Source: Metallosphaera yellowstonensis MK1 (GTDB taxonomy: Archaea > Thermoproteota > Thermoprotei_A > Sulfolobales > Sulfolobaceae). From it: a DNA stretch of 47,417 nucleotides. Below, piece after piece: positions 8,591 through 42,108 of this stretch. Under the pieces are notes generated by a model. That model was not told the DNA's origin, did no database searches, and saw only the letters and a program-made list of their open reading frames with translations. Position 1 is the first letter of the stretch; the number at the start of each line of letters is the position of its first letter. The translations under genes and the position numbers were made by a program. Location of the stretch: positions 991,248 to 1,038,664 of the forward strand of contig NZ_JH597761.1 in the NCBI RefSeq assembly GCF_000243315.1, given 5' to 3'.

Positions 8591-8695
8591 TTAAACTCGT
8601 CGAGTTTTACCTTATCTGACGGCAGTTTTGGGACTTTCCCAAAAATATCGACCTGTAATCAAGGCGAAATCTAATAACTGCTGTTCCTGATGTTA
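8591..8695 (-). repeat. Dispersed ~58-bp repeat, inverted copies relative to 18 kb
   Basis: Read on the minus strand this gene-free stretch contains cagcagttattagatttcgc, then cttgattacaggtcgatatt and gggaaagtccca. The same order of blocks occurs twice in tandem at about 18027-18147 on the plus strand. A second, poorer unit (aactgccgtcagataaggt) follows on the minus strand, so this site may also hold two units. No reading frame is conserved. It could be an unrecognised RNA, a protein-binding site or a miniature element. Confidence 0.6.
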
Positions 8696-10050: not shown

Positions 10051-10084
10051 CCAAAGAAAAAACTGTTCTTGGAGGGTGGCAAAG

Positions 10085-10330
10085 CTCTAGCTCAGTTTCC
10101 CTAGGGGTTCTGGCTTCATTGAATTTCCATGAATTTGTATCCAATCCTTAGCCCTTGGGCTTCACCGGAGTCAGGGCTGAACCCTTTACACCCCTCCGCC
10201 CCTTAGCGGGATGACTACGTCAAACGGAGTGTCTCTATCCGTTGGGAAAAATCCACACCTTCAGTCCACCGTCACATCTCGTCCGGGCACCTTCACCCCA
10301 TCCGATGTGACTATATTTATCTTTTTTTTT
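10085..10330 (-). ncRNA. Structured gene-free element, related to 23820-24000
   Basis: No gene lies between 10051 and 10575. Read on the minus strand this part shares ordered blocks with 23820-24000: gtcatcccgctaa followed by a GGGG-rich segment, then gactccggtgaagcccaag (identical over 19 bases), then a ggctaaggattg-like block and atgaagcc. Several short inverted repeats (for example around cggatagagacactccg) suggest folding. A TATA-like tract (gataaatatag, minus strand) precedes it. It looks like an RNA gene or the RNA-bearing end of a TnpB-type element (omega-RNA-like); no intact transposase adjoins it. Confidence 0.4.
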
Positions 10331-10566
10331 CCAACAAGTAACAAAACTTTACAGTTTATCGAAAACTTTTGGCAACGGTGCATAACTTAAATCGAATATA
10401 ATGAGGTACTGCCACCCCTGACATATCACTGGATTTCCCGTCGAAGGTTCTGAGAGTGCGGGTTGTGGGCTAAAATCTAGGGTGTGAGTGGATGGACCCT
10501 ATTCGCGGTTAGGGCTTAATCCAAAATATAGAGTTTAATTTAAATATTCTTTCTCCAAGATTAACA
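10331..10566. other. Intergenic stretch without recognised gene
   Basis: AT-rich from 10331 to 10410 with a run of T; then a GC-richer part (10405-10510). It carries the repeated words CTGA, and a TAATGAG with a 12-nt gap to the first CTGA, which faintly recalls a C/D-box sRNA without a good C' box. The tract tttaaatat at about 10538-10546 is a credible TATA box for the flavoprotein gene downstream. Nothing else was recognised. Confidence 0.3.
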
Positions 10567-11643: not shown

Positions 11644-11704
11644 ATCTTGGTAATATTCTATGAGTTTTTGAGGACTTGTTTTAGTTAAAGGGACTTGATA
11701 TCAT

Positions 11705-11730
11705 ATGAAATCCTATGAAGCCCAAACCTC
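11705..11730 (+). repeat. 26-bp fragment of the 23.9-kb RNA-like repeat
   Basis: The 19 bases atgaaatcctatgaagccc and the following aaacctc recur at 23974-24000 with one extra A. Here the fragment stands alone just past the stop codon of segB, with no trace of the rest of the element. Confidence 0.7.
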
Positions 11731-18009: not shown

Positions 18010-18150
18010 TGACCTAAGTTACAGTAGTTACAGCAGTTATCAGATTTTACCTTGATTACAGGGTGCTACCTAAGGAAAAATCCCACAACTGCTGCAGTTA
18101 TTAGTTTTTGCCTCGATTACAGGGCGATATTTAAGGGGAAGTCCCATATC
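18010..18150 (+). repeat. Two tandem ~58-bp repeat units
   Basis: Gene-free stretch between phoU and the next gene. Unit one reads from cagcagttatcagattttac through cttgattacagggtg to aaaaatccca; unit two from ctgcagttattagtttttgc through ctcgattacagggcgatatt to gaagtccca. The minus strand at 8591-8695 carries the same blocks. Each unit has a short inverted repeat around the cagcagtt/aactgctg words, so tandem hairpins are possible. No coding frame is conserved. Confidence 0.7.
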
Positions 18151-23715: not shown

Positions 23716-23819
23716 ACCGTGGTGCACTCAAACAGAGCCGTTGCCAACAGTTTCAGTTAAACGAAGTTTACATTTCATATATGCTAAATCTTCGATGAGA
23801 CCGGTACCAGATGTAGTGA

Positions 23820-24000
23820 GATATACCGAAGAGGTGACCACACGAGGTGTGCGGGTTCCCCCATCAAGTCACTCTGATGGGTGGGGTCATCCCGCTAATG
23901 GGGAGGAGGTGGTATGAGTCGGGTTCGCCCCACGACTCCGGTGAAGCCCAAGAGGCTGAGGGTTGATAACAAAATGAAATCCTATGAAGCCCAAAACCTC
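23820..24000 (+). ncRNA. Structured gene-free element, omega-RNA-like candidate
   Basis: Between 23716 and 24090 no gene is found. The part from 23820 is rich in short inverted repeats: ccacacgaggtgtg, cccatcaagtcactctgatggg, and a GGGTTCGCCCC turn. It shares ordered blocks with the minus strand of 10085-10330, including gactccggtgaagcccaag, and its tail (23974-24000) recurs at 11705-11730. A TATA-like catatatgct lies at about 23777. The pattern of conserved hairpins next to a TnpB-like gene suggests an insertion-element RNA, but it faces the TnpB-like gene rather than following it on the same strand, so it may belong to a lost element. Confidence 0.4.
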
Positions 24001-24090: not shown

Positions 24091-25170
24091 CTATTCGTTA
24101 TTTTTAATTACTTCTAATCCCTTTAATGCTATTAAGTAAGCAGAGGCTGTATGCCTATCAAATCCCTTCTCCCTCATCACCTTGTCGTGATCCTCAGAAT
24201 TTGTAGTACCCTTAGGATTAACTAACACAACGTTAAAACATAACCTAAGTGCTTTAATAACACCGTGAGTTAACAATTGCTTCTTAGCAAAACGCGAAAC
24301 CTTCCTATTACCGCTCTTACTCCTAGTAAACTTCCTCTTCTTAACTAGGAACAAGTCCTCAAAGATAACATAATCAACACCAATCCGTGATAGGAAATTA
24401 AGAGCTTGTGAAAGAGCATTCAAACGCAAAGCCCTAGCTTTCCCTTTAGGAAAACCCGGTCTAGTAACATCTGAATACCGCCACGTCTTATTAGCAATAA
24501 TTTCACCATCCTCGCTAACCACAACAACGTTCAACCTATCACTATTTAAATCAAAACCAGCAAACAAACCGTAACCCACAGGTTTTGGTGAAGAGAAGTG
24601 CTTTAAATAAAGCCAAAGTGGGATTTGGAGGTGAATCATAGGGTAATGCTTGAAACTTACTACAGCACCGTAACCCTCCTCCTTCCTTCGAGATTACTCC
24701 TCTAGCTCAGAAAGTAATGGTAAGTACTCCTTGCCTAAGTACGCCTTCCCGTGAATCCACTTACCCCATGGGTCTTTAACTTTAATTTCCACGTGGTCTT
24801 CCAAAACGTGAAACTTAATCCCCCTATTACCATTATCGCTTTTGTTACCCCTACAAGCGATCCACCTCTTTTTAATCTCAACCTTACTCCCTTTATTCTC
24901 AACTAATGCTAAAGCCTGCTTATAAGCCGTTTCAGCGTAAAAGGCGTAAGGGATGATATTATACAACTCCTTAACAGCATCATTTAATGAAACTCCTCTT
25001 AAAGCTAAGTTGATCCCAGCCTTTACAGCCTTTGAGTGAGAGTAAGCAATTCTAGCTACCTTACCCACGTCCTCGAACTCAACCCTACCATTTATAGTCA
25101 CGAATTGGAAGTTTTCAATTGCTTCCTTAGAACCAATTAGCTTACTCCTCATCATCTGGTAGGATAACAA
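24091..25170 (-). pseudogene. TnpB-like RNA-guided nuclease/transposon protein with one in-frame stop
   Basis: Two frames, 24694-25170 and 24091-24639, lie in the same phase. Translating through the TAA at 24694-24696 gives one protein of about 359 codons: LSELEE, stop, then SRRKEEGYGAVVSFKH and on into the second part. The RuvC-like residues are all in the second part: Asp in AGFDLNSDRLNVV, Glu in VIFEDLF and Asp in GFDRHTASAYLIA. No CxxC zinc ribbon is visible, unlike classical TnpB. One base change (for example GAA to TAA) would explain the break. The C-terminal NNE-stop is the block repeated at 4410-4503 and near 390. The first residues overlap the AbrB-like gene, and ATG at 25155 may be the true start. 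Confidence 0.7.
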
Positions 25171-25349: not shown

Positions 25350-25500
25350 ATTAGAATAGAGGGTGCCACCATGAAGTCGATGAGCAGTCGCGAGGTGGAG
25401 GAAGGCACCCAATGAAACTCCCCATGTCCTTGAAGGGAGTGGTTTAACTACCGCTCCCGTAGACGGCATGGAGAGGGAGAAGGAGTGATGAGGCTGAGTG
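25350..25500 (+). ncRNA. Structured element upstream of the AbrB/TnpB-like unit
   Basis: Strong nested inverted repeats are visible: ggtgccacc (25364-25372) with ggtgg and ggcacc; ctccccatg with catggagag; and an inner hairpin gggagtggt/accgctccc with a 6-base loop. A TATA-like tract (tttataaac, about 25329-25337) precedes it on the plus strand at 25-30 bp. No coding frame explains the conservation of these arms. It could be a small RNA or the left end of the insertion element. Confidence 0.4.
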
Positions 25501-41848: not shown

Positions 41849-41924
41849 TAGATCCCGTTTATCCCTACACTCTCATTTCAATCATTTTATGTTCATTCAT
41901 GATCGAGTGTAGGGACTTAGCCCT

Positions 41925-42055
41925 CAACCACCTACTTACGGTAGGTGGGTCATGGGACTCCTTCGAGCCCAACGGCACGGGGCTCACATCTCTGCAATCA
42001 CTCCCACCCTTTTGGGCATAGCCCACATCGGTGTGGGAGGTCATTATTTATCAAC
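41925..42055 (-). ncRNA. Structured gene-free stretch, RNA-like remnant
   Basis: Several hairpins stand out: ccacctacttacggtaggtgg (41928-41948 region, arms ccaccta/taggtgg), gagcccaacggcacggggctc, and cccacatcggtgtggg. On the minus strand a TATA-like gataaata opens it and the 3' part reads ggctcgaaggagtcccatg before the last hairpin. This arrangement recalls the RNA at the end of TnpB-type elements, but no transposase remains and no direct match to the 10-kb or 24-kb elements was found. Confidence 0.35.
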
Positions 42056-42108
42056 GAAAATTCGTTATAAACAGTTATAAAAAGATTTCTATTAACGTGA
42101 GAAAGGAT

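Follow-up and report, generated by a model that had tools for sequence, protein, structure and literature searches.

A window of 47,417 nucleotides (the whole stretch of DNA analyzed; G000:C10:991248-1038664) from the 2.8-Mb, 21-contig genome of Metallosphaera yellowstonensis MK1 contains two stretches built from the same ordered sequence blocks, one at 10.1 kb with its RNA sense on the minus strand and the other at 23.9 kb with its RNA sense on the plus strand. What is this repeat, and why does it carry hairpins? A preliminary description had offered two answers: the guide RNA of a TnpB-type system that survived without its protein or a new noncoding RNA.

The repeat proved to be real and widespread. 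A DNA search of the same genome identified at least 40 related copies, with E values down to 6e-47 at other loci, and DNA matches were present in 10 of 25 genomes of relatives. Of the 40 matches listed for M. yellowstonensis, 15 had the shared core 64 to 70 bp downstream of a Cas12f1-like_TNB domain (PF07282) on the same strand, and this fixed spacing 3' of the TnpB domain indicates that the core is the right end (RE) of a TnpB element together with its omegaRNA scaffold. The extracted copies terminate in ...ATGAAGCCC(A/G)AACCCC, beyond which each continues into unique sequence. In a logo built from 83 right ends, conservation was nearly complete through AACCCC, and the sequence was essentially random starting with the third base past it. 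The location of the scaffold 3' of tnpB, the sharp element border, the near-random flank, and the covarying structure described below are all as in an omegaRNA. A second common block, GCCGTTGYCAACAGTTTCNGATAAACCGTAAAGTTTATAT, lies upstream of both short and full copies and holds a motif (family consensus, CCGTAAAGTTTATAT) that, judged by the archaeal consensus, is a putative BRE/TATA-like promoter. As this left-end (LE) block precedes short and full copies alike, it fixes the outer borders of the two window elements (Table 1).

Table 1. Features of the repeat copies in the window
Feature	Positions	Strand	Basis
Element 1, complete short derivative of IS607 lacking tnpA and tnpB	10104-10379	-	LE and RE profile matches, paired; ends as in ISSis5
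Element 1 left end (LE at 10379), including target-derived ACC (10377-10379) and putative BRE/TATA-like promoter	10336-10379	-	Alignment of LE copies
Element 1 hairpin A of the omegaRNA, GTCACATC...GATGTGAC	10271-10311	-	
Element 1 hairpin B, CAACGGA...TCCGTTTG	10221-10244	-	
Element 1 conserved omegaRNA core and right end (RE at 10104): GTCATCCCGCTAA, hairpin C, GACTCCGGTGAAGCCCAAG, RE stem, ...GAACCCC	10104-10220	-	
Element 1 flank directly 3' of the scaffold, would-be guide (TAGGGAAACTGAGCTAGAGC...)	10080-10103	-	RE logo; guide role by analogy with TnpB biology
Element 2, the other short copy lacking tnpB, from GCCGTTGCCAACAG... to ...GAAGCCCAAAACC	23737-23998	+	LE and RE profile matches
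Detached tail, right-end-only remnant, RE profile positions 71-114	11692-11730	+	E = 0.006

These borders change the limits first given for the copies. The intervals 10085-10330 and 23820-24000 do each hold a copy, but element 1 continues beyond 10330 and 10085-10103 is flanking sequence, while element 2 starts well before 23820. The elements are 276 bp and 262 bp long, respectively, and the RE terminus of element 2 has decayed, with CCTC in place of CCCC. The lone tail reported at 11705-11730 is a right-end remnant with its motifs in the correct order, although it is wider than was thought, and its E value, from a search restricted to fetched loci, is weak alone. We sought pieces of TnpB in both window copies and found none, nor is there room for TnpA; each is thus a derivative rather than an autonomous IS607 member.

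The autonomous relative is ISSis5, which on the Sulfolobus islandicus plasmid pYN01 has the same left end, an IS607-type TnpA (serine recombinase), TnpB, and the same right end. Complete copies of ISSis5 were also found in the archaeal viruses ATSV, SSV10, and SSV11 (L190, L191, and L194), and LE and RE profile matches flank tnpA-tnpB at L192, L190, L191, L194, L195 to L198, L206, and L213. In the viruses SMV1 and SMV1a (L189/L193), we observed a right-end remnant without an adjoining TnpB. The TnpA scored 226 bits against the NCBIfam IS607 transposase model NF033518 (cutoff, 110). Judged from sequence, the window repeats are non-autonomous miniature IS607 (ISSis5-like) elements of the Sulfolobaceae: they have the ends of an element with a serine-recombinase TnpA and no TnpA of their own. 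The existence of a full transposase with the same ends had been named beforehand as a finding that would speak against an RNA; ISSis5 is such an element, and it places the repeats in IS607 without conflicting with the guide-RNA reading. In M. yellowstonensis itself, intact TnpA and TnpB reading frames persist, with some of the 81 TnpA matches intact. Locus L025 encodes an intact TnpB of 396 amino acids. The 433-amino-acid TnpB frame of ISSis5 (L192:804-2105) covers the whole omegaRNA scaffold, nearly to the transposon border, so that in the short elements this RNA is retained but no longer has to encode protein. The counterpart of hairpin A in the parent elements is the zinc-finger codons of tnpB, CPRCGWVSRKVG, and that of hairpin B is the last (C-terminal) tnpB codons plus the start of the RE.

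Short tnpB-less copies with both ends (249 to 288 bp) numbered 24 in six genomes from four genera: 10 in M. yellowstonensis (G000), 7 in G002, 4 in G013, and 1 each in G001, G011, and G014. Most retain the left end, hairpin A, a short linker, hairpin B, hairpin C, and the right end; L006, which is similar in length, was excluded from the 24 as a separate deletion without hairpin A. On an 85-row tree, built from a short alignment with a rough bootstrap, the tnpB-less label changed 10 times, with at least 6 changes forced by supported branches, and the G001 short copy nested within the G001 clade (100/100). Given these forced changes, loss of tnpB probably occurred repeatedly.

At least 16 own-genome copies at different sites (including L007, L042, L044, L045, L053, L059, L064, L066, and L086 to L089) have in common a 4-nt deletion in the stem of hairpin A, that is, in the tnpB zinc-finger codons. 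The deletion frameshifts tnpB ahead of the last RuvC Asp, which we take to lie where the known motif of the family places it. This lineage appears to have spread after TnpB was broken, with programmed frameshifting as the alternative. Four own-genome copies have a common break in the tnpA frame at residue 168. Defective copies are therefore likely to have been mobilized in trans.

Does the RNA structure survive the loss of coding? Hairpin B had 13 double-change cells compared with 4.9 in shuffled alignments and a covariation score of 0.326 compared with 0.159 (0 of 500 shuffles), a signal that vanished on sliding; the two innermost pairs of the structure used were poor. The terminal stem GGGCU/AGCCC together with the RE stem had 21 double-change cells compared with 7.5 (0 of 500). 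In the terminal stem, a C-G pair is replaced by U-A in G001 (GGGUU/AACCC), and G004 has a two-position change (GGGUC/GACCC). Since the shuffle controls keep relatedness, these counts are support, short of proof. In the tnpB-less copies alone, hairpin B was 82% paired, with five double changes compared with 2.0 (about 13 to 14 of 500 shuffles were as high), so that covariation within this subset is moderate. In a motif-anchored search, all 7 pairs of hairpin A could form in 16 of the 24 copies, with arm variants such as TGCTACC/GGTAGCA, TCACACC/GGTGTGA, TCACATC/GATGTGA, and TGTCACC/GGTGACA. Arms from the same copy formed 6.46 pairs, compared with 4.94 when arms were swapped among copies; a best-stem search gave 7.61 of 8 pairs compared with 7.10 in shuffles, without clear separation.

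Overall, the stem arms vary (identity, 0.53 to 0.65) and the motifs joining them are kept (0.76 to 0.81), and the covariation counts bear out the early impression of conserved hairpins with variable arms. Stems are broken in some copies (e.g., L118 and L130), and folding z-scores of the short copies (mean, -1.2) were weaker than those of other copies (-2.05). RNAalifold recovered just 11 pairs from the whole MAFFT alignment because indels break hairpin B, and block alignments were used in its place. A covariance model of the scaffold, searched across the Sulfolobales, also gave lower-scoring matches outside the Sulfolobaceae, in further families of this order, and several of these matches terminate in the same AACCCC. 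As to identity, the suggestion of a TnpB guide RNA without its protein agrees with these results, since the scaffold lies 3' of tnpB in the parents and its structure covaries after tnpB loss.

We estimate a probability of about 80% that the short elements are miniature IS607 elements in which the left end is kept along with the omegaRNA scaffold, taking their identity together with the likely mechanism. The TnpA of full copies would move the short elements in trans via the common ends, and the TATA-like box of the left end would drive a transcript through the scaffold and on into the flank. This RNA may then be bound by TnpB that other copies supply, with the flank serving as guide. Because such a guide matches the empty site, cutting there would favor regain or retention of the mini-element. 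The RNA would most likely be a selfish trans-acting guide RNA, kept for helping its own element persist. Taken by itself, active guide function in trans seems to us about evenly balanced. These data suggest, short of proof, that the scaffold RNA is of value even without its nuclease gene. Tentatively, and at slightly less than even odds, the omegaRNA could even be the selected unit, with TnpB-less elements of promoter plus omegaRNA arising several times from IS607 transposons in the Sulfolobaceae and guiding, in trans, TnpB encoded elsewhere to cut their own empty sites and so enforce their retention (or, for some, taking part in host regulation). It is important to note that mobility needs both ends, and part of the conservation may therefore serve TnpA and not RNA function.

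This last point leads to the rival that survives best, in which the short elements are passive mini-transposons whose ends are kept for TnpA binding, whose structure is leftover or partly consists of TnpA sites, and whose RNA is inert in trans. For known MITEs and PATEs, the ends suffice (PMC3119063), decay is evident in many of the own-genome copies, and the copies with tnpB frameshifts and tnpA breaks suggest that defective copies are mobilized in trans anyway. Yet neither hairpin A nor hairpin B is close to the termini, and both are coding in the parents and still pair once coding is lost. The same RNA parts also recur in short copies on separate branches, although the deletions in L006, L067, and L080 cut across these parts. 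We consider purely passive elements rather unlikely, though still a serious competitor.

A second rival would have the RNAs domesticated as host-adopted trans regulators or defense guides, with TnpB or dead TnpB as the effector. Element 1 does lie upstream of a PadR-type regulator gene in the same direction, and TnpB copies broken ahead of the third RuvC Asp are common. Domestication nevertheless seems improbable to us: no locus was seen to be conserved across species, the guides would be unique flanks, and although the neighbor gene of element 1 has relatives in ten genomes, the element was absent from all six of the upstream sequences that were read.

The insertion sites bear on which transposon family gave rise to the short elements. 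In Sulfolobales archaeon HS-7, the single record matched in our pattern scan of genome contigs, the sequence around element L014 is TAC-GCC-[element]-TACTACC; the corresponding empty site in G036 reads TAC-ACC-TACTACC, and G037 reads TAC-ACC-GACTACT. The pattern scan of viral contigs matched only one contig, of 48,775 bases. ISSis5 in SSV10 reads GGACA-GCC-[element]-ATTCCGCG, and comparison with other SSVs places the empty site exactly at ...GGACAGCC/ATTCCGCG (slash, junction); alignments of 13 other SSV records span the joined site, and GGACAGCCATTCCGCG is present in both of the records inspected at single-base level. Insertion at the L014 and SSV10 ISSis5 sites is therefore precise, at (R)CC and without target duplication, as in IS607. 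For the window copies themselves, we found no empty sites; relatives carry the neighbor gene of element 1, with differing upstream sequence. The predicted empty sites are ...TTATGCACC/TAGGGAAACTG for element 1 and ...CAAACAGAGCC/TCATCAAAACC for element 2. A candidate target motif, TAY, 5' of the left end gave a weak signal and was dropped. IS607 elements are known to insert at GG with no duplication (PMC6188088), and their fixed right-flanking nucleotide is part of the reRNA scaffold, which the CCCC border of the short elements matches (PMC10711439).

The repeats might also be read as shortened forms of IS200/IS605 elements, or of IS1341 elements with tnpB only, comparable to the PATEs of haloarchaea, given the TnpB-linked omegaRNA, the lack of terminal inverted repeats, and the stem near the RE terminus. 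The ends in common with ISSis5 contradict this origin. The autonomous relative encodes a serine recombinase and not a Y1 transposase, the loci with a Y1 TnpA lack this RE and match the LE weakly, at chance level, and the exchange site is CC/GG with a right flank fixed as CC, rather than the fixed motif and variable right-flanking base of those families; we rejected it as very improbable. Nor are the elements classical MITEs, as the two ends are dissimilar and, judged from the empty sites, nothing other than the exchanged CC is duplicated. Least probable of all, with hardly any chance of being right, is an unrelated noncoding RNA family spread as a repeat, the second of the original proposals: element 1 matched no Rfam family up to E = 5 (4,227 models, the presence of RAGATH-18 among them being unconfirmed) and the ISSis5 right end gave only chance-level matches to other families, but the fixed place 3' of tnpB and both ends identical to those of an IS607 element contradict it.

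Among known systems, the Sulfolobales IS607 elements (ISSis5 of pYN01, SSV10/11, and ATSV) have the same ends, omegaRNA scaffold, and precise (R)CC insertion without duplication; they carry tnpA and tnpB, whereas the short elements carry neither and their scaffold is free of reading-frame overlap. Stand-alone IscB omegaRNAs acting in trans, encoded away from the nuclease gene, were reportedly described by Altae-Tran in 2021; these are likewise apart from their nuclease gene, but the nuclease is of the IscB/Cas9 type and the scaffold is different. The RAGATH-18-derived reRNAs, discovered first as an RNA motif, are the guide scaffold of bacterial IS607 TnpBs, and 64% of RAGATH-18 RNAs adjoin an IS607 TnpB, so that 36% do not (PMC11061315). 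They too are IS607 TnpB scaffolds, but from bacterial strains, and element 1 had no Rfam match. PATEs of Haloquadratum likewise lack a transposase, terminal inverted repeats, and target duplication, and some derive from TnpB-carrying elements, but they arose from IS605/IS1341-type elements, by repeat-mediated core deletion and with no omegaRNA retention described (PMC3119063), whereas the short elements derive from IS607. The Sulfolobus MITEs SM1 to SM4 and SMN1 are non-autonomous and multicopy in the Sulfolobales, with SM3A and SMN1 depending on the ISC1058 and ISC1733 transposases, respectively (PMC3718332, PMC10969869); they have terminal inverted repeats with direct repeats, which the short IS607 elements lack. 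TnpB-less relatives are thus already known (PATEs and 36% of RAGATH-18 RNAs); in the open-access literature, we found no description of archaeal IS607 mini-elements cut to a promoter and omegaRNA.

Several other features were noted. Adjoining element 2 and convergent with it, a broken transposase-like gene occupies 24091-25170 (minus strand); a 158-amino-acid piece has a weak match, below cutoff, to the transposase N-terminal domain model TIGR01765, and a 182-amino-acid piece has no family match and looks RuvC-like by eye. The Sulfolobus sRNA133 (Rfam RF02814; 93.6 bits) lies at 25402-25475 (plus strand), ∼1.4 kb from element 2. A different repeat, CCGATGTGGGCTATGCCC...GAGTCCCATGACCC, is found at 41855-42062 of the window, in the left flank of L006, and in the right flank of L064; short element L006 lies exactly at its border. 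It adjoins TnpB genes of ∼408 amino acids (L037 to L041) and may represent the RE of another TnpB family. Similar stretches of ∼65 bp at 8611-8685 and 18030-18148 are scattered over many loci (e.g., L006, L046, L085, L087, and L089) and form a separate short repeat family.

The short IS607 elements account for a repeat class without an Rfam match. If the RNA works in trans, they would be natural guide-RNA parasites, that is, mobile elements with little left but a promoter and the guide scaffold of TnpB, and one could test directly whether elements without a nuclease spread better because of TnpB RNAs. Such elements would further reveal what a thermophilic IS607 scaffold can do without and would offer trimmed scaffolds for heat-stable TnpB tools.
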